A DNA stretch of 64,000 nt from an uncultured Pseudomonadales bacterium (GTDB lineage Bacteria; Pseudomonadota; Gammaproteobacteria; Pseudomonadales; Balneatricaceae). Where the stretch lies: assembly GCA_943787595.1 (NCBI GenBank), contig CALSNA010000001.1, forward strand, positions 310,001 through 374,000. The letters run 5' to 3'. Numbering within the stretch: position 1 is the first letter of the stretch; each line of letters begins with the position of its first letter. This document shows positions 3,376 through 56,416 of the stretch, piece after piece. The translations under genes and the position numbers were made by a program. The notes below the pieces were generated by a model. The model had not been told where the DNA came from and did not search any database. It saw nothing but the letters and a program-made list of their open reading frames with translations.

Positions 3376-3775
3376 TTGAATGCTTCACCCAAAGGAGATG
3401 GCAATTTGTAATGAGGTAGCGCCTGAATGGGATATTTCATATAGGGTTTGACCACATGACATAGTATGTTTAAGAGTATCTGGATGCTTGAATAATATGT
3501 AACGTTTTAAAGGATATAGTCCCAGATGTAATTAACGATATTTTTAGAAAAATATGAACCATAACGATAATTATTTACTTTATAATTAATCGCTCAGGCA
3601 TCACAGTTGGGCTTTTTATATGAAATATCTGAGTTAACCCCTCAGCTTGATAGTGCAGTAAAGATCAGGCATTCTGAAAGTTTTCTTGGAATATAATTAT
3701 AGTAATCAACAAAAATAGAGCTAAGTTAATTTAAATTGACATGAAGCAGTGGTGCGCCCTAAATGGAGACTTACA
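3376..3775. other. Non-coding gap
   Basis: About 400 bases of AT-rich sequence between patB and the PHP-domain gene. I see no ORF with family resemblance. Confidence 0.5.
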
Positions 3776-4600
3776 TTGATAGACTTACATTGTCATACCA
3801 ATTGTTCTGATGGCACCCTTACACCCTTGCAACTCTTGCAGTTGGCACAGGAAAGTGGGGTGCAAAAACTGGCTATTACTGATCATGATACCGTAGCTGC
3901 TTATTCCCAGTTAGAGGATATAATACAGGGTAGTGCAGTTGAATTAATTCCTGGAGTTGAGTTTTCGTCCCAATGGGACAAGCATTCTGTACATATTGTT
4001 GGGCTTAATATTGATCTACAACATCCAACTTTACATACAGCTGTTGCGCATCAGTTTGTAGTTAGGGGCCAAAGAGCCATGCGTATTGGCTTTAAATTGG
4101 CTCAATTGGGCTTTGGTGATGCATATGCTGGTGCACTGCAATTAGCGGGCGACGCAGTAATATGCAGACCTCATTTTGCTCGCTATCTAGTACAACAAGG
4201 TGTGGTAACGAGTCATGCAAGTGCTTTTGAAAAATACCTTGGCGCAGGTAAGTTGGCTGATATTCAAAATATTTGGCCAGAGTTAACAACTGTGATTGGA
4301 TGGATTTTGGACTGCGGTGGTGTACCGGTATTAGCCCACCCTAGCCGTTACAAAATGACCCGTAGTAAACGCATGAATTTGATACGTGATTTTACTGAAG
4401 CTGGGGGGCTTGCTTTGGAGGTTTGCTGTGCCAACCAGGCTCATGGAGTAGCAGAGCATATGGCTGATATCTGTGAGCAATACAACCTACATGCTTCCGT
4501 GGGCAGTGATTTTCATTCACCAAATTATCACTGGGTGAAATTAGGAAAATATCCACCCTTACCTAAACGCTGTCTTCCGGTATGGCAGTTATGGCAGTAA
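3776..4600 (+). CDS. PHP-domain phosphoesterase (RNase AM / nucleoside 3',5'-bisphosphate phosphatase type)
   Basis: Metal-dependent phosphoesterase of the YciV/TrpH PHP family; characterised members remove phosphate from 3',5'-nucleoside bisphosphates or trim RNA 5' ends. The PHP metal-ligand motifs are DLHCHTNCSDG at the N-terminus, ITDHDTV, PGVEFS, a central HP in VLAHPSRY and the C-terminal SVGSDFHSPN. I chose the TTG at 3776 because GGAG lies at 3765-3768, 7 nt ahead, and homologues begin right at DLHCH; GTG codons at 3749 and 3752 would only add a basic tail. This gives 274 aa. In pseudomonads this gene precedes a YciO/Sua5 gene, scpA, scpB and rluB; here the YciO gene is absent and scpAB are dead. 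Confidence 0.85.
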   Translation: MIDLHCHTNCSDGTLTPLQLLQLAQESGVQKLAITDHDTVAAYSQLEDIIQGSAVELIPGVEFSSQWDKHSVHIVGLNIDLQHPTLHTAVAHQFVVRGQRAMRIGFKLAQLGFGDAYAGALQLAGDAVICRPHFARYLVQQGVVTSHASAFEKYLGAGKLADIQNIWPELTTVIGWILDCGGVPVLAHPSRYKMTRSKRMNLIRDFTEAGGLALEVCCANQAHGVAEHMADICEQYNLHASVGSDFHSPNYHWVKLGKYPPLPKRCLPVWQLWQ

Positions 4601-4696
4601 GATTGTGTTTGAGCTACGTTAGTAATAATTATTATAATAGTCGTATAAACTATACAGTTTACCAGTGGCTCTGACAGATTTTTAGCTGGACTTTTT

Positions 4697-5374
4697 ATGG
4701 AAATAACCTTTGAAGGGCCATTGGATCTGTTGCTTTACCTGATCGGATAATAAAATCTAGATATCCAGAAAATCCATGTAGCAGATATCACCTGTCAGTA
4801 CATTGGCTATACTGAGCTTATGGGAGATAGTCAGTTTGAACTTGCTGGAGGATATCTGGTCATGGTACCCATGTTGGCAGAAATTAAGAATCTTAGTTTG
4901 TCACCATAATCTCATAATGAAGTAAATGAGGATAAAGACTCTCGAGTTACTTTTGTCCGCCAGCTATAAGTATATGAACGTTTTAAAGAAGCTGTAGAAC
5001 GCATTGATGCCTTACCCCAAATAGAGCGCGATACCTATTCTGATTGCATGGGTATACCTAATGTTGATTGTGTATATTATCAGCCGACAGAGCAACTTGA
5101 TGCACTGTCAGGCGCATATCGCAATGTATTGAGTCATTGTGATTCATATGAACACCACTTTGTGGGTTTTTACACACTAGGTTGTCCTTCTGAAGGTCGC
5201 ATAGGTGTAGATGTGACTTTCCTGGCCGTGCTGTAACTGGTTAAAGATCAGTTGGTGAATTTATTACAAGCAAAGGACTGTGGTACCATCCATATTGTTC
5301 TGGTAAAGGATCATGATGTGGATACTACGCAACCATAATATCAGCCTGTACAGACCTTACAGGAGACGCTGTGA
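4697..5374 (+). pseudogene. scpA: scpA pseudogene with six in-frame TAA stops
   Basis: ScpA is the kleisin subunit of the SMC-ScpAB condensin that compacts and segregates the chromosome. The frame from ATG 4697 reads MEITFEGPLDLLLYLIG then two stops, NLDIQKIHVADITCQYIGY, ELAGGYLVMVPMLAEIKNL, VYERFKEAVERIDALPQIERD and at the end NLLQAKDCGTIHIVLV, which follows the ScpA consensus throughout. Premature TAA codons lie at 4748, 4751, 4907, 4967, 5234 and 5336. There is no net frameshift: all are in the same frame as the ancestral TGA at 5372-5374, which overlaps the scpB GTG. The 226-codon span is close to a full-length gene. It sits exactly where scpA belongs (PHP gene - scpA - scpB - rluB), so this is an in-place loss. 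Confidence 0.93.
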
Positions 5375-5502
5375 TTATTAACTTAGTTACCATTTTGGAA
5401 GCTTTGCTGCTGGCTTCGGATAAGCCCCTAACCCTTTTAACATGGCATTCATGCACCCTAATGACACCGCAATTTTCACTGTATTGCCTGAAATTATTGT
5501 AA
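5371..5502 (+). pseudogene. scpB: scpB remnant (N-terminal fragment)
   Basis: A GTG overlapping the scpA stop as GTGA opens VIINLVTILEALLLASDKPL, the recognisable N-terminus of ScpB (winged-helix partner of ScpA). After about 25 codons the resemblance ends and the frame closes at 5500-5502 with an unrelated tail. The rest of the gene (normally about 200 codons) is missing before rluB. Confidence 0.85.
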
Positions 5503-5730
5503 ACCATTATATCATGCAGTTATACGTAGCATGCCGATAGAAAGATATCATGTTAAATATATAGTTAAATAATACCTAGCCTTACAGCCCGATCTTTGTA
5601 GTTCAATTTTAATATTTAATTACATACTTTTGATCACGATGATGTGTCATTCCCTACTATGGGCCCAACATCATGTGGTAATTAGCCAGTTGTGTTAAAC
5701 TTAAGTCATGATTGTCTTGATGGAATCACC

Positions 5731-6552
5731 ATGAAAAACCTTAAAAATACTTGCGCTAAAACTGTTCCTCCAGGGGAAAAATTACAAAAAGTCCTTGCGC
5801 GTGTTGGTCTTGGTTCACGCCGACAAATGGAACTCTGGATCAGTGGAGGTCGTGTACAGGTTAATGGAACTTGTGCTAGTCTAGGATGTCGGATCCGTGG
5901 TCATGACCGCGTTAGTGTGGATGGAAAAAGCATTGATTTGGCTACTAACGGGTCAATAAAACGCCGGATTTTGATTTATAATAAACCAGCAGGTGAAATT
6001 GTGACACACAATGATCCTGAAGGCCGCCCCACAGTATTTGACCGTCTTCCTCAGGGTGAACGCTGGCTCTCCATTGGTCGCTTGGACCTTAATACTGCTG
6101 GTCTGCTGATGTTTACTAACGATGGCGAATTAGCTAATGCTCTGATGCATCCATCTGCCAACATTGAGCGGGAGTATGCGGTGCGAGTGATGGGGCAAGT
6201 CACTATTGCTATGGTGAATGCCATGCATAAAGGTGTATTGCTGGAGGATGGTATTGCTAACTTTACCGACATTCAAGAGTTTGGTGGTGAAGGCATTAAC
6301 CGTTGGTTTCATGTAGTGATTATGCAAGGTCGAAATCGTGAAGTTAGACGTCTTTGGGAATCACAGGGATTACGAGTCAATCGCCTTAAGCGAGTTCGAT
6401 TTGGGCATGTGTTCCTACCGTCTCATTTACGTTCTGGTATGTGGATGGAAATGCCTCAAACCGAGATAAATGCATTGTTAGCTTTAGTGGACATGCAATC
6501 TAAGCATCGTCCACTTGAGCAGCGATGGAAAACTCGTCAATACATGACTTGA
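5731..6552 (+). CDS. rluB: 23S rRNA pseudouridine(2605) synthase RluB
   Basis: Cytosolic pseudouridine synthase of the RsuA/RluB/E/F family, isomerising U2605 in 23S rRNA helix 93. An N-terminal S4 RNA-binding domain (EKLQKVLARVGLGSRRQMEL) is followed by the catalytic domain with the RLDLNTAGLL motif carrying the nucleophilic Asp. NKPAGEIVTHNDPEGRPTVF and MQGRNREVRRLWES are also diagnostic. I prefer the ATG at 5731 (273 aa); an in-frame GTG at 5692 would add 13 residues. Its position after scpAB is ancestral. The C-terminal tail is shorter than in many pseudomonads. Confidence 0.93.
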   Translation: MKNLKNTCAKTVPPGEKLQKVLARVGLGSRRQMELWISGGRVQVNGTCASLGCRIRGHDRVSVDGKSIDLATNGSIKRRILIYNKPAGEIVTHNDPEGRPTVFDRLPQGERWLSIGRLDLNTAGLLMFTNDGELANALMHPSANIEREYAVRVMGQVTIAMVNAMHKGVLLEDGIANFTDIQEFGGEGINRWFHVVIMQGRNREVRRLWESQGLRVNRLKRVRFGHVFLPSHLRSGMWMEMPQTEINALLALVDMQSKHRPLEQRWKTRQYMT

Positions 6553-7698: not shown

Positions 7699-8013
7699 GG
7701 TCTTATCACTATGATTATTATCACTGCTGCGCCATACTAGATAAACTAGTATTAATTTTATTAAAAAGGAATTTTTATAAAGTTTCAATTACTATATTGA
7801 GTCAATTTCACCTCAATAAATAACTAACCACGTGGTATATTTAACGGTTAAGCAAGATAATGCAGTGTTTAACCTTTATTCATGAGTTCAAAGGTACAAT
7901 ATTGAGTGTTTTTAAGCTGTTAGCTTTACGCTAGCAATTGGTTTGGTCAACCAGGGTTGACAGGATAATCAGAATTCATGTAAAAGCCAGTTAATGATTT
8001 GGATGAAAGTGTC
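7699..8013. other. Gap between galU and the coiled-coil gene
   Basis: About 315 bases with no recognised gene. It presumably holds the promoter of the following gene. Confidence 0.4.
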
Positions 8014-9849
8014 ATGTCAAAACATAATGAATTTGATGAAATTCCCAGTCTGATACCAGACTCAGATGAGATTAAGTCATCTAGATCCAGGCTTCCTTCT
8101 CAGGATAAGCACTCAGCTACGCGTCGATCTGTATCCGTTGAGCATAGGCAGTCGCCGGGTAACTTGCCTCCTCGTGCTGCAAACTATGGTTCTCAATCTA
8201 AACGGCAGGAATCTCAGGTAAACCGTAGTGGAGGACGATTACCCCTATTGCTGATATCAATACTAACGTTGACTATAAGTGCAGTTGGTTATTGGTATCA
8301 TAGCCAACTGGAAAAAATGGATATGCTGCTGGCTACAACTAAGGGAGAGCTTGATCATTCCCTTAGACGCATTGGTGAATTGGAAGCTTTAGTCGTAGAA
8401 ACAGATGCGAATGCCAACCAATCAGGTAGTGTGATGTCAGCTCGAGTTAAGATGTTAGATGAACGCAGAAAAGCGCGTGCCAAGTTGATCGACTCGGAGC
8501 TTAACAAGTTATGGGGAGTTGCCAATCAAACTAATAGACCTGCAATCACTGAAAACCAAAAAGCCATCGAAAATAACTCCGCTGCAATTAAAGAACATGG
8601 TCGTCAGGTTAATGATCAATCTCAATTGATTGATCAGCAAAATACTCTGATTGAGACCCAAAAAGGTAAAATTGAAGACTTCATCGAGGTTAATCAACAG
8701 GCTAGTGTGCTAATTAATCAGCAGCGAGAGGAATCGAAGCTGCAATTAGAGGCTTTACAGAAACAACAAAACCAAGTTAATGAACTTATTAACCAGATGG
8801 AAATACAGCAGTCGACTGTTAACAGCAATATATCTGAACAGTTGCAATTGTTTGGGCAACAAAATCGTAATCAACTTCAGAGTATCAATAATTTGCAAAG
8901 CGAGCTAAAAGCGACTATTGATGAAAGCACTGCATCACGAACTTCAACAGATTTGATGAATACCAAAATTAGCCAATTGCAGGCTGAGCTTAAGCAGTTA
9001 CAACCGTTACGCAATATAACTGACAAAAATGTCCAACAGTTGGTTCTACTACAACAAAAGCTATCTAATTTTAATAAGTTGATGGCTAGTCTTGATCCGA
9101 TGATAGCTAATCTTGATCAACAGATTGTTAATATTGATCAGAAGATGATCAGTGTTGATCAACAGGTTGTCAGTTTAGGCCAGCAAATGGTCAGTGTTGA
9201 TCAACAGGTCACTAGCTTTAGCCAACAGATGACCAGTTCTGACCAACAGATGGCTAGTTTAGGCAAACAGGTGACCAGTTCTGATCAACAAGTAACCAGT
9301 TTAGGTCAGCAGATGTCTAGTTTAGGGCAGCAGGTGTCCAGTTCTGATCAACAGGTGACTAGTTTAGGGCAGCAGATAGCTAGTTTAGGCCAACAGGTGA
9401 CCAGTTCTGATCAACAAGTAACCAGTTTAGGTCAGCAGATGTCTAGTTTAGGGCAGCAGGTGTCCAGTTCTGATCAACAGGTGACTAGTTTAGAGCAGCA
9501 GATAGCTAGTTTAGGCCAACAGGTGACCAGTTCTGATCAACAAGTAACCAGTTTAGGGCAGCAGGTGTCCAGTTCTGATCAACAGGTGACCAGTTTAGTG
9601 CAGCAGATGGCTGGTTTAGGCAAAAAAATGGCTAGTTTAGGCAAACAGATGACGCAAGCTACGACTGAAGCTAATGCTTTGAAGCGCCAGTTGAATGCTT
9701 TTTCAGTGCTTGAACAAACCACTGGACAACTGGATGAAAAGATTTATGGACTAGAGCAAGATATTATGGCAATCAATGGTTTCCGGAGCGACACCAATGC
9801 AACTATTGAGCAGTTCCGTGCGCAGATTACTGCGTTACAGTACCAGTAA
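8014..9849 (+). CDS. Membrane-anchored coiled-coil protein with heptad repeat array, function unknown
   Basis: I do not recognise a family. From the ATG at 8014 the protein is 611 aa; a TTG at 7999 would add five residues. The first 75 or so residues are polar, serine- and arginine-rich and probably cytoplasmic. One membrane helix follows (RLPLLLISILTLTISAVGYW). The remainder is a long, probably periplasmic coiled coil rich in Gln, Ser and Asn. Between about residues 359 and 547 lie 27 consecutive seven-residue units of the types SLGQQVS and SSDQQVT, with hydrophobics spaced 4-3 as in a coiled coil. The C-terminus returns to ordinary heptads (KIYGLEQDIMAINGF). No enzymatic motif is visible. 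A structural, envelope-spanning or surface-tether role is conceivable but unproven. Confidence 0.8.
   Translation: MSKHNEFDEIPSLIPDSDEIKSSRSRLPSQDKHSATRRSVSVEHRQSPGNLPPRAANYGSQSKRQESQVNRSGGRLPLLLISILTLTISAVGYWYHSQLEKMDMLLATTKGELDHSLRRIGELEALVVETDANANQSGSVMSARVKMLDERRKARAKLIDSELNKLWGVANQTNRPAITENQKAIENNSAAIKEHGRQVNDQSQLIDQQNTLIETQKGKIEDFIEVNQQASVLINQQREESKLQLEALQKQQNQVNELINQMEIQQSTVNSNISEQLQLFGQQNRNQLQSINNLQSELKATIDESTASRTSTDLMNTKISQLQAELKQLQPLRNITDKNVQQLVLLQQKLSNFNKLMASLDPMIANLDQQIVNIDQKMISVDQQVVSLGQQMVSVDQQVTSFSQQMTSSDQQMASLGKQVTSSDQQVTSLGQQMSSLGQQVSSSDQQVTSLGQQIASLGQQVTSSDQQVTSLGQQMSSLGQQVSSSDQQVTSLEQQIASLGQQVTSSDQQVTSLGQQVSSSDQQVTSLVQQMAGLGKKMASLGKQMTQATTEANALKRQLNAFSVLEQTTGQLDEKIYGLEQDIMAINGFRSDTNATIEQFRAQITALQYQ
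9088..9654 (+). repeat. 27 x 21-bp in-frame tandem repeat with a 126-bp super-repeat
   Basis: Each 21-bp unit encodes one heptad. Units alternate between SLGQQ(V/M/I) and SSDQQV types and are organised in a 126-bp (six-heptad) higher-order repeat: the GTGACCAGTTCTGATCAACA start recurs at 9271, 9397 and 9523, exactly 126 bp apart. Units near the ends are more diverged, those in the middle nearly identical, which implies recent duplication. Confidence 0.95.
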
Positions 9850-14961: not shown

Positions 14962-16191
14962 AATTTTTCTCTATTCTCTCATCTTGTTTTTGATATTGTA
15001 TCATAAATAGCGATGTTCAATTGTTTTGAACAGTTTATGTATAAACTTTCTTAAGTCCAAGGAACCTGGTCCTGTCACTTTTTGGCCATGTTAGTGCTAA
15101 TTAAATCAATGATCAATGTTCGTTGGAAAAAACCATGTAAAAAGATATAAAAATCAGTTTTAGAAGTTAATAAATGATAATTCTATACTAATTATATTCA
15201 TATGGTCACTTAAACTGTCTAATACTTGCAAATACAGATAGTGTCCTTTACCCACAATTTTTCTAGCCGCCGGTGCGATTCACAAAATAGCTCGTTTTAA
15301 ATTTTATGTGTGCCTCGTCATCATTTTTTTCATCACGCCATATTGAATTATAAAACACACTGAATCTAGTGTAATACATTGTTTCAGTTGGCTTCCTTAG
15401 TTAGGTATTCGATCATATTTGTGCTGGTCAAAAAACGCTTTACATATACATGATTGCTTTGTATCGCTACTGACTGATATTGGACTGGAGTGTGTTGGTT
15501 CTGAATATACTTCACCACCCATAATATGCATATTGATAACCTCGATCAGAATGGATTAAAATTCCAGTGTGATACCCATACCCTCACCACGAAAAACAAG
15601 AATAGCTCAATTTTTCTTGAGCCCGGAGGCCTGTGATGTCAGTTACTGTTGGTGACATTGGGTTAGAAATCTAAAATATGCGTGTCAAATAATGCCTTGC
15701 CATCATTCAGAGCCCTCTAGTTGAAATAATTTAATTTAGATTTTAAATAATCTAATTTGTTTCATGGAGGCTGTATAGGCATAGGTTGAGGTATGCTTCT
15801 ATTTTTCTAGCTACAGTAGCTTTTAGCTGCGTTACTAGTGTTTTAATTAATACTTTCACTAATGCACTATAATGCCTAGTAACTATGGTGGGGTTTTCAG
15901 TTTTGATATTGACTATGTCCAATCAGCGAAGCGATACGGTAAGCCCGACCGTAAACATATCAGCACCTGATTACGTTGAACGATAAAACTTAAATATGAG
16001 AACCTGTATGAGCTAATTTACATGTTCTAATGATAGCTTTTGTGGACGGCTGTAAAATCACATGCATACATTACTTTTGTGCTTTGTATACCGTAACTGT
16101 TTCATGAAATACCTGTAACTGGTTATAATTGCACCAATTAGCATAGATGGCCATTTTAATTTCCAACTTTATCTTAAGCTAAAGGAATATT
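14962..16191. other. 1.2-kb gene-free region between rpoH and ubiX
   Basis: No ORF with recognisable family resemblance on either strand. Two weak hairpins are visible: GCTCAA/TTGAGC at 15605-15622 and TTAGATT/AATCTAA at 15736-15755. In relatives ftsX would lie upstream of rpoH and mpl upstream of ubiX; I could not read remnants of either. The ubiX promoter and the rpoH leader must lie at its two ends. Confidence 0.5.
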
Positions 16192-24520: not shown

Positions 24521-25337
24521 CCTGATTTTAGCTCACACACTCAATAAATATGAATGATGCTTACAATGGAACTGTGATTTAGAAAAATTGAAAGTAATCC
24601 TGTGTCAGACAGATGCTACTGTTTATTTGTCAAAGCGAGTGAATTTACTGGCATGGTAAAGCCCCTAGTAATCCTTGATGCCATCATTGCAGTTATGATC
24701 ACCATTGTTTCTAACTTGACTATTGCTATAATACTGGCGTAAATCAAGTGTGCGCTCTGTTTGCCAAAAGACAGTCTTTGGTTGGCCAGGGGTAATTAAG
24801 ACTCTCAATTTTTTGGTCATGTCATCACTCTAACGCCATCTTGACAAAAGTTTTCAACGCCAATGCAACGGCGGTATGGTTACTCTCTCGACAATTCCAT
24901 TAGAACAGATTAAGATTTGCAGGGTTAGCTCAACATTTAAATACTGAATTAAGAGTGCTTTACTGATGTATATTGGTAGTATTTTTATTTGTAATACGCA
25001 TTTGAACGATAATGTGATGTTTGGCAAACTTAATAAGTAATATTATTGTATTGTAAGGTCAATTTGCTTCATTCTGGCCGATTTATACAGGGCTCATCCT
25101 ATATCCTGTCAAGTCAATGCCAATACCAACTTGATGTGTTGTGGGTTAGATTTAGAATATGCTTCCTAATCTTGGCAAACTTGGTTTTGTACAATCACAT
25201 TGGCGCCGAGTTGAAAAAATAAGTTAAAGCCGGTTGGTTTATTTGGTGTGCTTTGCAATTAAAGTTTGTAGTGTCAGTATTTATTTGGAGCTGGTACTGA
25301 CACAATGCCTCAATCGGCTGTATATTGGAGGCTTTGA
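24521..25337. other. Leader/intergenic region before btuF
   Basis: About 800 bases with no coding remnant I recognise. It holds the btuF leader. I looked for the B12-box hallmarks of a cobalamin riboswitch and did not see a convincing one; the strongest structure is the 9-bp inverted repeat at 25271-25303. Confidence 0.45.
25271..25303 (+). promoter_or_regulatory. Inverted repeat in the btuFCD leader
   Basis: GTGTCAGTA and TACTGACAC are perfect 9-bp arms with a 15-nt loop, ending 34 bp before the btuF ATG. It could be an operator or an RNA hairpin controlling the importer genes. No T-run follows. Confidence 0.5.
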
Positions 25338-31618: not shown

Positions 31619-31619
31619 T

Positions 31620-31660
31620 AAAGGGTTTTTCATTATCTATATTCATTTAGAAAACCCTTT
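31620..31660 (+). terminator. Hairpin after the ligase-like gene
   Basis: AAAGGGTTTT at 31620-31629 pairs perfectly with AAAACCCTTT at 31651-31660, starting 2 bp after the stop codon. The 21-nt loop is long but position and an adjacent T suggest transcript termination. Confidence 0.55.
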
Positions 31661-31772
31661 TAGTTTCTCTATAGTTTTAAAACCTAACATGAGAAAGGCT
31701 ATTCCATCACAGCATCTGTTGGCATTTCAGATCAGGCATAATCTACCGTAGCATGGGGTTTATAGCAAAATA

Positions 31773-31850
31773 TCCAAGGCAGAAAAAGCCAGGCACCTGA
31801 GACAAACCAATTGTGGTGCCTGGTTTTAATCCACATATTTTCTGCTTGGA
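31773..31850. repeat. Nested inverted-repeat element
   Basis: An outer pair (TCCAAGGCAGAAAA at 31773-31786 against TTTTCTGCTTGGA at 31838-31850, one bulged base) encloses a perfect inner 9-bp pair, CCAGGCACC at 31789-31797 and GGTGCCTGG at 31815-31823; the latter is followed by TTTT. The inner part alone would serve as an intrinsic terminator on the plus strand. The whole could be a small structured RNA or a miniature inverted-repeat element. Confidence 0.6.
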
Positions 31851-32059
31851 TCAGAGCGTGCCTTATCGCTGATCTTTGTTTAATGTCTTCAGAGTATGCT
31901 CTTTTTTAATCGCTCGTATATCATTTATCTATAATACAACCAGCAGTTTCAACCGCAGATGTTGTTCTACCATCTAACATCTTTTTAAAAACCAATTACC
32001 TCATATCGTCTGGCTTCACATCACCTATTTTAAGGTAAAAATTGTATCCTGCCCCCAAA

Positions 32060-32610
32060 CATGTTTTCACACTAATCTTTGAGCCGCCTTGGCTAGCTCC
32101 ATGTCCATCAGGTCGACGATGACTATCTGTATCTGTTCAGTTGTGGTTTTATGATCCTTTTGGACATAGATCGCCCTTGCTGAAAACAGCTCGGTAGAAG
32201 TGAACGATGCTGGGTTAACACTGTGCATCGGCAAAATCATCACCGGCACTTTCTAAGAGCCTCCTGCGAGCATCTGAAACGGTCAGCTGCTCGCCTTATA
32301 GCTACCAGTATGGCGAGTATCAGAGGAAGCTCGGCCAGCCAGACTTGTCTTTCTGGGTGCCTCAGAGCGCCTTGGTGGTGTCCTCGATCTGGCGCATAGA
32401 AACGTCTACCAAGTACAGCCCGATCAACACCGCTTTGACCGAATTTTCGCGTCGTCAGTATTGTTCGATGATTGCTGTCTCAACAGCTTGCTCGCGCAGT
32501 TTTGCTTCATCGGCTCATTCTTCTGTCTAGGGTTCGTTCGCCGGCTCACAAGCGTGTTCTTACGGCCTTTGTTAAATGGTTGGTCTTGGCATCAAGCATC
32601 CTGTTCAGCG
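32060..32610 (-). pseudogene. Degenerate IS256-family (Mutator) transposase
   Basis: Read on the minus strand in shifting frames: MLDAKTNHLTKAVRTRL, then KLREQAVETAIIEQY, RRENSVKAVLIGLYLVDVSM, RQIEDTTKAL, KDKSGWPSFL, then LTVSDARRRLLESAGDDFAD, PSIVHFYRAVFSARA and VDLMDMELAKAAQRL. The order and wording follow the IS256-family transposase domain (SVEE-LIEMYLAGVSVRRVEDITEALWG; LIISDA-RGLVESA; CVVHFYRNVFS). Stops, frameshifts and a deletion after the KAL stretch remove the segment around the first catalytic Asp. GC content is visibly higher than the flanks, consistent with an acquired element. No clear terminal repeats remain. Confidence 0.85.
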
Positions 32611-32814
32611 CTATTTAATAGATTCACGAAGAATAAACTTATTGCATTCTTAGGCGATCATCATGGATTTGGCGGAATGATTAGACTTAAACTAGGCTTA
32701 TGGAGCAACGCAAGAGATAATGATTGACAACTTTTAATAAGACTAATGTGTACCCAAAAGATCTAGGTTTGAGGATTACGGGTTTGGCAAGGTTTTAGTT
32801 TATATATCAAAGTT

Positions 32815-32888
32815 TGGAGGCTGAGGTCGGAATCGAACCGGCGTACACGGAGTTGCAGTCCGCTGCATGACCACTCTGCCACTCAGCC
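32815..32888 (-). tRNA. tRNA-Cys (GCA)
   Basis: The minus strand folds as a 74-nt cloverleaf: acceptor GGCTGAG/CTCAGCC, anticodon loop with GCA inside GGACTGCAACTCC, T arm CCGGTTCGATTCC, and an encoded CCA end (TGG on the plus strand at 32815-32817). It lies 36 bp downstream of tRNA-Gly and is probably cotranscribed with it. Confidence 0.96.
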
Positions 32889-32924
32889 TGATTGAGTGCC
32901 TACCTTATTGTAGGTTTTATGATT

Positions 32925-33000
32925 TGGAGCGGGAAACCGGGTTCGAACCGGCGACCTCAACCTTGGCAAGGTTGCGCTCTACCAACTGAGCTATTCCCGC
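32925..33000 (-). tRNA. tRNA-Gly (GCC)
   Basis: 76-nt cloverleaf on the minus strand: acceptor GCGGGAA/TTCCCGC, D arm AGCTCAGTTGGTAGAGC, anticodon GCC in CCTTGCCAAGG, T arm CCGGTTCGAACCCGG and encoded CCA. It is the first gene of the Gly-Cys pair, a pairing also found in pseudomonads near pgsA. Confidence 0.97.
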
Positions 33001-33018
33001 ACTGCATTTGGACGCAAG

Positions 33019-33047
33019 ATCATACGAAGGTTTGATAAGGATTGCAA
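33019..33047 (-). promoter_or_regulatory. Sigma-70 promoter of the tRNA pair
   Basis: On the minus strand TTGCAA (33047-33042) and TATGAT (33024-33019) are separated by exactly 17 bp, 18 bp ahead of the tRNA-Gly 5' end. A TGCAAG/CTTGCA inverted repeat at 33043-33060 overlaps the -35 box. Confidence 0.75.
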
Positions 33048-33259
33048 GTATAATCTTGCAGGGTTTCCTGAACATGGATACGTTAATGTATTTGAAATGT
33101 GAACATACAACGCTTTTTACCCATGTTATTGTCCTGCCATAAGATATCTAGGTTTGGTCTTCTTTCAATTTAAATAGTTAAATATTATGATAGTTCCTTT
33201 TAAAATTGATGTTATATGAACCACTTTCACTAGCAGCTATATCCTAACAATAGTGGTTG

Positions 33260-35668: not shown

Positions 35669-37012
35669 GTTTCTTACCATACTGTTGCATGGATCTTAGG
35701 ACAAGAACCATGACACCATTCCTAATTGCCTGTAAGCCAGTTATTACAGGGCCGTTAATAGTAGAGTTGCGATGTGTCAGGAACTGACTCCTTCAGTGAC
35801 ACCATTGATTCGCACAAGAGTTAAATATTATACTCCTAAACCAATAGGAGTGCGAACTTACAGCAGCCATTTACAAAATGGGATGGAATTTCTGAAATAT
35901 GTTGTGAATAGGATATAAAGGTTGTGTTTAGAAATTATATTGTAGGAAAAATAAGTGAACCTAATTCAAATATCCTTATTTTCCAATCAGAATTAATGAT
36001 TGTTTCTCCTTACAATGATTTGGTTTGTTAACTAACCTCAGAAGCACTGTCCTGGAAGTTTGATATTAGTTTAAACTTCCAGGACAGTGCTTTCCCTAAG
36101 CATATTGCTTAGCTTAGAGTATACATACTCGTTGTCGTTTTATATGTGTGCAATCCATGAATCTAGTGTTTTTACTCAATCAAAATTACAGTATTTTCGA
36201 AGGGTATTATGAGCCCTTATTACTGTCTAAGGTATATTTCCACAGTTCTAATAAGCTAGGTACAATTGAACACCCACAATGCACAGTATGATCCCTGCAA
36301 TATTATCCTTATAGTTACACTCCATTGCATTGCCAAATATAATCTAGACTGCATAAGTTATGCTAAATATCCAATTATTATTGCCCAACCCAATCAGTGC
36401 TATGGTATGGCTTATCATAGGGCATAGTCAGTGAAAAATACGATCTTGCTATAGGCGTTGACAAATTTTTTCTGATGAATTTCACCCATAACTGTTGTTT
36501 ATGTTTTTCTCAAGGTTGTAAACTGTGTTCCGTTGAATATAACGCATTAGCATCAGCAACGATAGCCAGTTTAGTGGGCTCATTGATTCAACTTTTCTAA
36601 TTTGGAAACCTCCGATTTTGTTCTGATCCGGCTGTGGCTAGGCTATGTTAAGTCTGATGTGTTGTCAGTTGACATAAGCTTGTGTGCGTTTACCTCCTGT
36701 ATTGTTTGCCTCTTGTGTTGAAATGCTCCTATAATTCAGGCAAAAATATGTGGAGGTGTATGACTATCGAATAATTTTCATTATTCTAAAGTACTACCAT
36801 GTGTACCAAACAACTTAGGCTGTTCCAATATAGGGTATCTTTTAGTGATAAGGTAAAAGATATGATCTCTGATTCCATCTTATCAATTGTTAGCCGAGTA
36901 CTTGACCTGATCGGAATAATTCGTTCCTGGTTTATACAGGACTTTATTTGTGCTCAAACCTTTTGCCATAATTGCTTATTGATCTAATGATCATAAATAT
37001 GAGAATGTTGCC
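35669..37012. other. 1.3-kb gene-free region between rpsA and fldB
   Basis: Divergent intergenic space holding the promoters of rpsA and fldB. An open stretch of 62 codons at 36799-36987 has no recognised family and no good ribosome binding site. The notable structures are a perfect 20-bp inverted repeat at 36042-36092 and, directly after, CTAAGC/GCTTAG at 36096-36112. I could not read a cmk remnant. Confidence 0.5.
36042..36092. repeat. Perfect 20-bp inverted repeat
   Basis: AAGCACTGTCCTGGAAGTTT at 36042-36061 is the exact complement of 36073-36092, with an 11-nt loop. It stands alone in a gap, 370 bp upstream of rpsA. It looks like a strong hairpin terminator left behind by a lost gene, or a miniature element. 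Confidence 0.75.
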
Positions 37013-52349: not shown

Positions 52350-52710
52350 TAGATTATCACCTGCTCATTGGCTAACGGTATAGCCAATAGGTTTGAAACT
52401 TATAGGATACCTCATCATACAGCCTTGGCACAATTTGATAGCTGTTTGATAATATGAAGGCTTTCGTAATTTGCGGCCAGACTACGCAACAATAGCTAGG
52501 TTAACAATCTGTTGCTTTAATCGTAAGCATAATGGAATAGATTGTGTAATGCATGGTATTATTATGGCTTATGGTTTAATGAAAAAAATGCATACGCATC
52601 ATGGCGATTTATTTTTTTAACTATATTATTCACACTATTTAATCAGTTACTTGTCTGTTTTTATAATGTACATGAGTCTTATCGTACTAAAGTTATGTTG
52701 TAGGTATTAG
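52350..52710. other. Gap between hemC and 6S RNA
   Basis: About 360 bases with the hemC promoter region. In many gammaproteobacteria the gene after 6S RNA is the 5-formyltetrahydrofolate cyclo-ligase; no readable remnant was found. Confidence 0.4.
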
Positions 52711-52892
52711 GAACTTCCCGCAATGTCGTATTTGACTCAAGCCCTGAACCCATGGATTCAAGGTGGAAGCTACTGTTACACGGAAGGCTTTCCACAATTC
52801 AGTGGACATGCACAAAGTGTAATTTTTCGGCCTCCAATACTGGCATATCGGCTCGAGGGACGTAGCCAAAACTCAATCACTGCAGGAAGTCT
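52711..52892 (-). ncRNA. ssrS: 6S RNA
   Basis: The minus strand contains the 6S RNA landmarks in order: 5' closing strand ACTTCCTGCAGTG, the CCCTCGAGCCGATAT segment, the central bubble region, CCACCTTGAATCCATGGGTT, and a 3' strand CATTGCGGGAAGT that pairs with the 5' strand (with G-U pairs). 6S RNA mimics an open promoter and sequesters sigma-70 RNA polymerase in stationary phase. It lies just downstream of zapA on the same strand, as in most gammaproteobacteria. Ends are approximate to a few bases. Confidence 0.88.
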
Positions 52893-52898
52893 CTTGTA

Positions 52899-52904
52899 AG
52901 TATA
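52899..52904 (-). promoter_or_regulatory. -10 box for 6S RNA
   Basis: TATACT on the minus strand ends 6 bp before the inferred 6S RNA 5' end. No convincing -35 box was found at the usual distance. Confidence 0.5.
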
Positions 52905-52954
52905 CTCATTTTAGTGAATTTTTCATCTACTTTGGTAAAAAATTTCCTGGCACA

Positions 52955-53239
52955 TTAACTGGAATCAAGTACTTTGCCAATACACTGGTCAAGCTGTTGA
53001 CAGGTTATTTGAGTTAGTTTGGCAAATTCCCTTGCTTCAACTAACTCAGCACTAATATTAAGTGCGGCTATAATCGCTGTACGTTCCGGCTTTTGCAACC
53101 GATCTGAATGACGCAAGCTATCTAATTGCTGGTTAAGAAGTGTGGCCGCCTGGTGCAGGATTTGTTCATGTTCTGGGGCGCAACTAATTGTATATGCCTG
53201 CCCTAAGATAGAAATGCTTGTGGTCTTATTGTTGGTCAT
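52955..53239 (-). CDS. zapA: Cell division protein ZapA
   Basis: 94-aa FtsZ-bundling protein. From the ATG at 53239 (AGGG upstream) it reads MTNNKTTSISILGQAYTISC, then EHEQILHQAATLLNQQLDSL and RTAIIAALNISAELVEAREF, the short globular head plus C-terminal helix of ZapA. An upstream codon at 53257 would add six residues. 6S RNA follows it, the conserved zapA-ssrS arrangement; ygfB/pepP-type neighbours upstream are absent. Confidence 0.93.
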   Translation of the reverse strand: MTNNKTTSISILGQAYTISCAPEHEQILHQAATLLNQQLDSLRHSDRLQKPERTAIIAALNISAELVEAREFAKLTQITCQQLDQCIGKVLDSS

Positions 53240-54017
53240 TCTATTGCCCTGTCTCAAGGTTTTTAAGGGCTAATTTTAGTAATAGTTGCAGTTCTTGTGT
53301 CATCGTTTTAATTCATCAATTACCTAAATTTGTACTTTAGCAGCTATTCCAATTAACATGTTGCCGCACTTAACTTGCACATGATGAACTGTGTCAATAT
53401 TATCAAATCATTATAAAAATACTACCATTGCAGGTCAATTTCCATGATGGTCAGTATCATGATAATGATTTTATACTATGTTGATTATAAGGGGTTAGTG
53501 CTATGATCGAATAGGTCAGATACAGGCTGGTTGTCCCCATGCGCTAAATTCAACCTTTCTCCTCTATGTAGAACACTTGAAATAAAGTCCTATTCTCTTA
53601 ACTACCATACTGACTGTAAGGTACGCTAATCAAGATGATAAATTGTGTGTTCTATGCAATTGTAGCTCTGGGTGCTATACGATATATTGGTGCCGTATAG
53701 GGTCGGATGTGCTTGGTTGAATACAACTGTGTGAGCAGTGTTATAGGACGACAACAATGTTGTATGTAATGATACATACCGTTTTACGGTACAACCATCA
53801 ATATGTTGGTGCAATCTATAATATATTGGCACGTAATGTACGTACAACGACTCTTGCTAAGCCTACCGATGTATTAGAGGCGTAAGGTATAGTAACGCAA
53901 CCTAAGGCTATTTTTTATTGTCTACTGCTGTCGTGGGTGACTAATATAGCGATTGGTTTTTTAATTCTGGTGTAATTAGGGATGTATGCTGGTGTGTCTA
54001 ACACTATTAATCACCTG
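53240..54017. other. Gap with clustered short inverted repeats
   Basis: No gene seen. Between 53675 and 53843 at least five perfect short inverted repeats occur: CTATACG/CGTATAG (53675-53700), ACAACA/TGTTGT (53751-53763), GTATGTA/TACATAC (53762-53779), TACCG/CGGTA (53777-53791) and ACGTA/TACGT (53831-53843). A motif like ATATATTGG with a following TGC or CAC occurs three times (near 53683, 53800 and 53822). Confidence 0.55.
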
Positions 54018-54566
54018 TCATAACAATTTCTCAATAGCGCTTGAGAGTGATTGTGATTCGGGTCCGACCCAACTGGAAAAACGGTTAATAACTTGTCCCT
54101 GGCGATCCACTAGGAATTTGTTGAAATTCCAGCTGGGTTCACCCACGTGTGATGCTAAATATTGAAAAATAGGATGGGCCTGTTCACCGGCTACTGAAAT
54201 TTTTTCTGTCATTAGAAAGGTAACACCGAAATTCAAGTAACAAATGCGTGCAGTTTCTTTTGCGGTAGCAGCCTCTTGATTGAAATCATTGGAAGGGAAT
54301 CCGATTACTACTAGGCCACGATCGCGATAGCGTTGGTAAAGCGCTTCCAGGTCACCAAATTGGCTGGTAAAACCACAATGACTGGCTGTATTAACCAACA
54401 ATATAGGCTTATCTGTGATCTTTGCACAAACATCAATCATCTGATCACTGTGTAGCTGCTGCAAGGAATGATTAATCCAATCAGGGCATGCTGTCTGTGC
54501 CTGTACAATAGGTAATATCAGCAATGTCACTAGGAATACATGCAGGCGCCTAAAGGTTGTGTTCAT
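54018..54566 (-). CDS. Exported glutathione peroxidase-family thiol peroxidase
   Basis: 182-aa thioredoxin-fold peroxidase with a signal peptide (VFLVTLLILPIVQA before QTACPDW), so it should act in the periplasm. VNTASHCGFTSQFGDLEALY carries the peroxidatic Cys, FPSNDFNQEAATAKE is the second family block and WNFNKFLVDRQG contains the active-site Trp and Asn. Most GPx enzymes of this type use thioredoxin or glutathione; the reductant is not visible here. Length after signal removal (about 160) is typical. It stands alone. Confidence 0.9.
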   Translation of the reverse strand: MNTTFRRLHVFLVTLLILPIVQAQTACPDWINHSLQQLHSDQMIDVCAKITDKPILLVNTASHCGFTSQFGDLEALYQRYRDRGLVVIGFPSNDFNQEAATAKETARICYLNFGVTFLMTEKISVAGEQAHPIFQYLASHVGEPSWNFNKFLVDRQGQVINRFSSWVGPESQSLSSAIEKLL

Positions 54567-55017
54567 AAGAGAAGCTCCAGTTGCTTATCCATATGTTGTA
54601 GTTTATTTATGTATCTTAGCCCTTACTACCTATATACACTACATGCTACCATCAATAAGTATAATCTATTTTAGATTGATAAATAGTGGCTTGCAACTCT
54701 TCGTAACAATGTATTTTTCAAAACCTGATTACAGGTCATTCCTCAACTCAAGTTGCTAGTTAATTTAAGCAGTATCATTGTGTTTTTTTTAGCTGATCAA
54801 GCGTAAAACGTCACTTGAGTGTTTTACTTCTTAGGGGAGCAAAGTAGAAGTTGCGTGTTTTTATTCTTAATAAAGCATGCAGCAGATCGATAACTGCCAG
54901 GGTGGTACGCTGCCAATAGCTATGTGGGGTCGCATTAGCTATTGCAAGCCCTTAATCATTTAGTCGCCAGATCTTGTGCGGGTTCAACTGATTCAAATCA
55001 GTTCGTATCTAGCCAGA
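54567..55017. other. Gap upstream of the peroxidase
   Basis: About 450 bases without a recognised gene. GTAAAAC/GTTTTAC form a small hairpin near 54808-54829. The peroxidase promoter should lie at its left end. Confidence 0.4.
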
Positions 55018-55101
55018 ATGACCTCTTAGATGGATTGGCTGTGGCTAAAATTCTAGCTAGACCATCTAATAAGTCTTAATAATGCTCAGATATGAGGTCA
55101 T
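55018..55101. repeat. Nested inverted-repeat element after the pilin cluster
   Basis: Outer arms ATGACCTC (55018-55025) and GAGGTCAT (55094-55101) enclose inner arms TTAGATGG (55026-55033) and CCATCTAA (55062-55069), all perfect. The left arms are contiguous, so the left 16 bases pair with two separated segments on the right. It lies just downstream of the leftward pilin genes and may be their terminator, a small structured RNA or a miniature element. Confidence 0.6.
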
Positions 55102-55143
55102 GCCCATCCCACTGTTTTATGAGATTCTAGTTAAGAACAAACA

Positions 55144-55578
55144 TCAGCCACACCTGCCTGTAGTTTGCCCTAACTGATCATAAGCTTGGCGTCTGCCCCA
55201 TTGATCCAGTTGCAATTGATAGCAGCTATGGTCAGCAGCTTGCAGACCAGTCTTGCGTATTTCAGCATGTAGAGTATAGCCTTGTTCGTTTAGTTCAATA
55301 CGGTAGTGGTAATACTCATCCAGGGGTTCTTGTATATCTGCACTGGCGAAGTCAGCAAAATAGGTATGGTAACGGCTATACCATACTGATTGAGCTAAGC
55401 CGATTTGTTGTAAGGTCTTCCATCCCTGTTGTCGTCCAGCGTGTAGCAGATGCTGATTCCATACAGGTAGTGCTAGATTTAGCAATAGCCCTAGCAGTAT
55501 TAAGACTACTAGCACTTCCAATAGACTGAACGCTTGTTGATGGTGTTTTGATTGAGTAGTTATGGATTGATCTAGGTA
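55144..55578 (-). pseudogene. pilE: PilE-like minor pilin without a recognisable start
   Basis: The frame carries a type IV prepilin signature, KHHQQAFSLLEVLVVLILLG, followed by a pilin body with YHTYFADFASADIQEPLDEY and a C-terminal cysteine pair (SCYQLQL and GRCG) as in PilE-type minor pilins. No ATG or GTG precedes the hydrophobic helix: upstream of it the frame is open only to 55578, and the first usable codon is a TTG at 55521 inside the helix. The residue before the cleavage point is Ala rather than the near-invariant Gly. I judge the gene to have lost its start and to be non-functional, though an unusual start codon cannot be excluded. Confidence 0.65.
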
Positions 55579-55763
55579 TCAAATTGGAAATACACTCTTG
55601 GCAATGAGGCCAGATAAGCTTGTCGTTGCTGATGACTGTCGCCAGCAGCAGTCAATAGGTAGCTGCTCTGTTGCAACATGGCAACGGTAGTTAACATCAT
55701 CAGCATTAATATGACCAGTGCCAGTGGTAAGATCCACCCCTGTTGTTGTTTAGATTGCTGCAC
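55572..55763 (-). pseudogene. pilX: pilX fragment
   Basis: From a GTG at 55763 the frame reads QQSKQQQGWILPLALVILML and continues with QQSSYLLTAAGDSHQQRQAY, the N-terminal helix of PilX (typically RQ-GAALLV--LILLLV-TLLG). It ends after 63 codons with LPRVYFQFDT, whereas PilX is about 170-200 aa, so the globular domain is gone. It lies between the pilW and pilE pieces in the order found in pseudomonads. Confidence 0.7.
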
Positions 55764-56416
55764 ATGCAGGCCGTGGATCAGGAATGGGCCAAATACCAAT
55801 AACTTGGGTATGTATGGTTGATTGACTTAACTGCATTGTTTGAGTTGAGTCTACCCTATTAGGCAGTGCCAACAACTGACGCCAGTTGCCAGACCAGGTT
55901 TGCAATTGTAAAGTCACCTGCACCTGTCGTACTTGCCATTTATCATGAGCTGGCATGGTTGCCAGCCAGCCAACGATCTAGTTGGCAATCACCATCACTG
56001 TCTACGCCGAAGCACAGTAACATGGAGTTAATATCAGCTAGCAGTGAGCTATTTGTCAAACGTCGGCGTTTAATACTTTGTTGATCAGCAAAAAAACGGT
56101 ATTCATAACCTTGGCAGCCTTCTTTACCTTGACGTTCTACCTGCAGCCATACTCCAGTTTTTAAATTGCTTTGTCCGGCCAGCAATGCATTACCACAACT
56201 TTGTCGCCAGTCCTGTAATAATACGGTCAAACTCAGGTCAGTGGCAACTTTCAGGCTGAGTTGGTTGTTAATCATTCGTTTATGCCTCTGTAAGTGATCC
56301 ATATACGTCAGCAGTCCTGCTATCAATGCAACGCCAAGGGCCAGGCTTATCATCAGCTCCAGTAGCGTATGACCACTACTGAAAAAGGGCTTTCTCCATT
56401 GATCAAAGTGGTACAT
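55750..56416 (-). pseudogene. pilW: pilW, frameshifted
   Basis: The first part, from the ATG at 56416, is an intact-looking PilW beginning with the prepilin signature SSGHTLLELMISLALGVALI, then LLADINSMLLCFGVDSDGDC. It ends at 55943 in GNHASS. The remaining PilW-like tail, WQVRQVQVTLQLQTWSGNWR up to QVIGIWPI, is in a different frame (55750-55956), so a frameshift near 55945-55956 splits the gene. The two parts sum to about 220 residues, close to a normal small PilW. The +1 residue is His instead of Phe. It overlaps the pilV stop by 14 bp. Confidence 0.7.

Follow-up and report, generated by a model that had tools for sequence, protein, structure and literature searches.

An scpA pseudogene with six in-frame TAA codons in a genome with apparent condensin loss

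We found that scpA, which encodes the kleisin of Smc-ScpAB, is a dead gene as far as its sequence can be read, a pseudogene, in a 64,000-nucleotide stretch of DNA (the window) from an uncultured Pseudomonadales bacterium. It is almost certainly a true and fairly young pseudogene that remained once Smc-ScpAB condensin had been lost from the lineage. The genome of ~2.28 Mb carries ParB and has, in our judgment, probably lost all SMC-type condensins (Smc-ScpAB, MukBEF, and MksBEF), with scpA as their last recognisable fossil, caught soon after its inactivation. The stop spectrum of the pseudogene is mildly unusual and the pseudogene is otherwise ordinary; the apparent loss of condensins above 2 Mb is the more interesting observation. 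The features of the locus are collected in Table 1.

Table 1. Features at the scpA locus (positions in the window)
Feature	Position	Strand	Basis
PHP-domain gene, uninterrupted, upstream neighbour	3749..4600	+	Pfam PHP; 54% identical to G001
Probable remains of the scpA N-terminus, likely frameshifted, directly after the PHP gene	4601..4696	+	g2 length, G001 spacing, motif-like match
scpA pseudogene, traceable in one frame to the ancestral stop	4697..5374	+	Pfam, profile of 92 ScpA, six TAA
Two adjacent TAA	4748..4753	+	Arg/Lys column (Arg 75/92, Lys 17/92), then Gln column (87/92)
TAA	4907..4909	+	Conserved Arg column (90/92)
TAA	4967..4969	+	Conserved Gln column (91/92)
Junction of 24-residue (72-nt) in-frame deletion	5158..5159	+	Comparison with G001 and g2 ScpA
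TAA	5234..5236	+	Conserved Glu column (90/92)
TAA	5336..5338	+	Unconserved C-terminal tail
scpB remnant, ~22 recognisable codons, remainder deleted or unrecognisable	5371..5436	+	tblastn and ScpB profile
rluB-like pseudouridine synthase, uninterrupted, downstream neighbour	5692..6552	+	Pfam S4 and PseudoU_synth_2; 64% identical to G001

The letters of the window place in-frame TAA codons at 4748, 4751, 4907, 4967, 5234, and 5336 of the plus-strand frame 4697-5374, exactly as the first-pass annotation had listed them, and the 225 codons ahead of the terminal TGA contain no internal TAG and no internal TGA. With TAA read as Gln, the translation matches Pfam SMC_ScpA (PF02616) with an E-value of 4.1e-15. 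A profile of ScpA sequences matches the same stretch in a single frame with 201 bits, at profile positions 42-199 and 218-266 of 271. This profile was built from the 92 distinct, stop-free sequences among 102 ScpA found by motif in the loci; the own-genome loci L001 and L066 were excluded beforehand, and L014, which is not in alignment A1, was usable for it. The best 80 of more than 590 loci, from which the records nearest the own genome may be missing, show 38-45% identity in the best segment. The pseudogene has 50-54% identity to 10 of 11 ScpA proteins of a related genus, g2, and 45% to the remaining one. Both the homology to ScpA and the syntenic position are those of an scpA orthologue, as the g2 genome G001 has the order smc-zipA-ligA-orf-PHP-scpA-scpB-rluB. 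The identity of 54% between the PHP neighbour and its G001 counterpart is near that of the pseudogene with g2 ScpA, which points either to a recent death of scpA or to a long-lasting constraint on it.

The frame had been described as running from its start to the ancestral stop without a frameshift, and this description holds for the 3' part. Profile positions 1-41 were not found in the frame, and the ancestral start cannot be placed at ATG 4697, which aligns within the conserved ScpA N-terminus. In g2, ScpA has about 30 residues ahead of the FEGPLD motif, and in G001 the PHP gene and scpA are 1 nt apart, with scpA beginning 2 nt past the last PHP base. The true N-terminus lies upstream of 4697 and is probably frameshifted. 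The top upstream match to the motif PxDLYIPPxAL, at 4641-4673, lies in a frame that differs from the rest of scpA and suggests such a frameshift, although it is only suggestive because scores as high were reached by 15 of 1727 pieces of the window and by 8 of 2000 shuffled sequences. The lack of a frameshift is thus borne out in 4709-5374 but not upstream. Likewise, ahead of 4697 the original frame also has a TGA at 4610 and a TAA at 4646, so the statement that all stops are TAA hinges on where counting starts; it stands within 4697-5374 before the terminal TGA and falls with the TGA at 4610.

At the other end of the frame, the terminal TGA overlaps the former scpB start, GTGATT at 5371. In g2, scpA and scpB overlap by ATGA in 10 of 11 scpA genes, nine of which have ATGATT; GTGATT therefore represents a g2-type overlap, and the net frame has been retained to the ancestral stop. 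The supposed absence of indels was not upheld, since 72 nt are gone in frame at the deletion junction. What remains of scpB matched residues 1-22 of G001 ScpB in tblastn with 59% identity (E 3.2e-4), and a profile of 81 ScpB matched it over 19 positions with 6.5 bits.

The damage extends well beyond the stops. We compared the pseudogene at the 66 columns that are at least 95% conserved across the 92 stop-free ScpA and found 14 missense changes and three stops, a total of 17/66 (26%), with one of the missense changes at residue 1, the alignment edge. When each of the 92 ScpA was scored against the others, the maximum was 5/66 changes (8%) and the mean was 0.86. Constraint at invariant sites is evidently relaxed, and the damage to conserved sense codons agrees with the earlier suggestion of a young pseudogene. 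The other earlier suggestion, selection that held the frame, would mean that the cell still produces ScpA, whole or in part, because TAA is read through or has taken on another meaning. Six TAA in one frame with no other internal stop and the strong single-frame profile match speak for it, but a kleisin reading frame interrupted six times, without positions 1-41 in frame, without 24 residues, and with more than a quarter of its conserved columns altered no longer has the conserved terminal Smc-binding and central parts of a functional ScpA. In addition, its partners ScpB and Smc were not found, and broken invariant residues, the deletion, and the vanished scpB leave little for selection to have held. 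Recoding is further opposed by TAA terminating 18 of the 34 mechanically chosen ORFs of at least 200 aa in the window, and by aligned stop columns that differ in residue (Arg, Gln, and Glu); TAA here neither stands for one residue nor has given up its role as a terminator. We regard continued production of ScpA as extremely improbable.

The first-pass annotation proposed that several stops replaced Gln, Lys, or Glu codons. The aligned columns agree for Gln and Glu, allow Lys only at 4748, and show two columns of mostly Arg, a residue that it did not name. In the 11 g2 ScpA, the columns of the first two stops have Arg in 10 and Lys in one, then His in 10 and Gln in one, whereas the columns of stops three to five have Arg in nine and Ser in two, Gln in nine and Arg in two, and Glu in all 11. 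All Arg codons are more than one substitution from TAA; hence, more than one step led to the stop at 4907, and the stops at 4748 and 4751 may have arisen likewise.

We simulated neutral decay under mutation models that were assumed, not fitted. Simulations matched to the missense damage gave a mean of 3.7-4.4 stops, with a probability of 0.17-0.27 for six or more and, given six stops, a probability of 0.015-0.043 that all are TAA. In another neutral simulation set, the latter probability was 0.006-0.040, depending on the mutation model. The all-TAA pattern carries less weight as evidence because it was singled out after the fact in a 64-kb window. The probability of zero frameshifts in the 3' 660 nt (4709-5374) was ~0.17, 0.012, and <0.001 with indels assumed at 2%, 5%, and 10% of substitutions, respectively; the lack of a frameshift there is unremarkable at 2% indels and odd at 5% or more. 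A mutation bias towards A+T, as the earlier reading had proposed, is visible: half of the 14 missense changes at conserved columns (7, or eight counting one ambiguous row) are G:C to A:T transitions, and GC content is 36% in seven sampled gaps versus 43% for the window. AT-biased neutral decay is enough for the stop pattern, although six stops that are all TAA are uncommon.

Comparison pseudogenes for stop spectra were sought in gaps of the window, scanned in six frames (1062-2241, 14962-16191, 31619-33259, and 35681-37012) or on one strand (24521-25337, plus; 52350-55942, minus), and none of use was found. Three of these gaps, each longer than 1 kb (1062-2241, 14962-16191, and 35681-37012), were searched in all six frames without a Pfam match at E 0.01. 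A Mutator-family transposase fragment with 51 matched residues is located in the gap at 31619-33258 on the minus strand, and the gap scans also gave ZapA, ComP-like, and GSHPx matches. Elsewhere in the window, a 616-aa ORF (7999-9849) follows a galU-like gene and contains, at 9113-9653, a long array in which 42/63/126-nt repeats code for coiled-coil units of the type SLGQQ/SSDQQ.

We searched the own genome, a draft of 2,284,036 bases in 6 contigs with 96.9% completeness (G000), for ScpA, ScpB, and Smc, and for MukB and MksB as the searched members of MukBEF and MksBEF. The genome search, repeated in a wider scan of the family, found the pseudogene as the one ScpA match, and it found no ScpB. 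A decayed duplicate of an intact scpA elsewhere, which the first-pass annotation had named as the case that would overturn its reading, is therefore highly unlikely: the incompleteness of the draft leaves the only room for it, while the pseudogene occupies the same place between PHP and rluB as scpA does in G001. The SMC hinge search gave no match in the own genome and was positive in all 23 of the other genomes examined from the family, but it is imperfect, with 10 of 14 controls positive and silence in G028, a genome with both ScpA and ScpB. MukB was searched for and not found. The Smc of G001 as query retrieved a RecN-like gene only (E 2.8e-4), and the best E-value with the MksB of another family member, G018, was 0.098. 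The SMC_N search was positive in 14 of 14 controls and gave 17 matches in the own genome, none of which is of condensin kind, since the longest open frame, 634 aa, is too short for an SMC protein. One of these matches, on contig C2 (334975-335973; L198), is a 540-aa ATPase that we take to resemble OLD-type nucleases and that is possibly a defence gene.

Neither Smc nor ScpB was thus found encoded in the draft, whereas ParB is uninterrupted with an open frame of 344 codons. The zipA-ligA pair is likewise uninterrupted; it lies on contig C2 and, unlike in G001, is not preceded by smc. In a draft of six contigs, displaced genes could lie in gaps. The loss of condensins is accordingly apparent, and the several searches that agree on it are based on a draft genome. 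Because the remaining condensin parts were not found, the run of identical stops looks like ordinary decay. An assembly or base-calling error is scarcely credible as its source; frameshifts are the commoner result of such errors, and real decay is what the six stops, the missense damage to invariant residues, the 72-nt deletion, the stub of scpB, and the missing smc all indicate.

Among the 23 same-family genomes other than the own genome, both ScpA and ScpB were found in G001 alone. In the wider scan, 13 of the 116 family genomes gave a ScpA match (11 of g2, the own genome, and one weak match below the cut-off in G067), and 103 gave none; judged by these scans, scpA survives in one related genus, g2. 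The identity of the hinge proteins as Smc was read in G001 and G016. A reading of the other 22 genomes (G002-G023) as having Smc without ScpAB was rejected for most of them, from the four of the 22 hits that were opened, in L061, L062, L064, and G016. The Smc of G001 matches just 30-38 residues in L061, L062, and L064. In L064, from G018, the hinge protein lies within an operon that we read as MksF-MksE-MksB, names that we assigned from size and order. This putative operon (L064:2610-8147) belongs to a 2.4-Mb genome with no ScpA or ScpB match. The Smc of G016 is real, with 70% identity to that of G001, and the absence of ScpAB there may be an assembly gap because an rluB orthologue is also missing (best match 30% identity). 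The own genome thus appears to have neither the g2-type Smc-ScpAB nor the MksBEF of another family member.

We propose that Smc-ScpAB became dispensable, whereupon smc, scpA, and scpB would all have drifted. Large deletions may have removed smc and most of scpB, and scpA would have decayed chiefly through point mutations, with an AT bias that could drive Gln and Glu codons, and Arg codons in two steps, to TAA. If a genome of more than 2 Mb with ParB indeed has no condensin, one can ask what compensates, by comparison with g2, a related genus whose member G001 has smc, scpA, and scpB. A literature search at the level of titles and abstract starts gave no report of the locus or of scpA decay through stop codons, which leaves their absence from print unproven.

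Compared with known systems, MksBEF is a complex type that could stand in for Smc-ScpAB, but its operon was read in one genome of the family, and the MksB of that operon has no convincing match in the own genome. In the case of ScpA, the sequence, the order PHP-scpA-scpB-rluB, and the junction at which the scpA stop and scpB start overlap are the same, and the differences are the six in-frame stops, the deleted 24 residues, the lost N-terminus, and the failure to find its partners. Genomes in early reduction have pseudogenes that are recognisable in one frame and carry AT-biased changes. The scpA pseudogene differs from these in that TAA is its only internal stop and that its 3' 660 nt are free of frameshifts, which is uncommon, and it shares with them the recognisability in one frame and the AT-biased changes, in a window of which ORFs of at least 80 aa cover ~77%.
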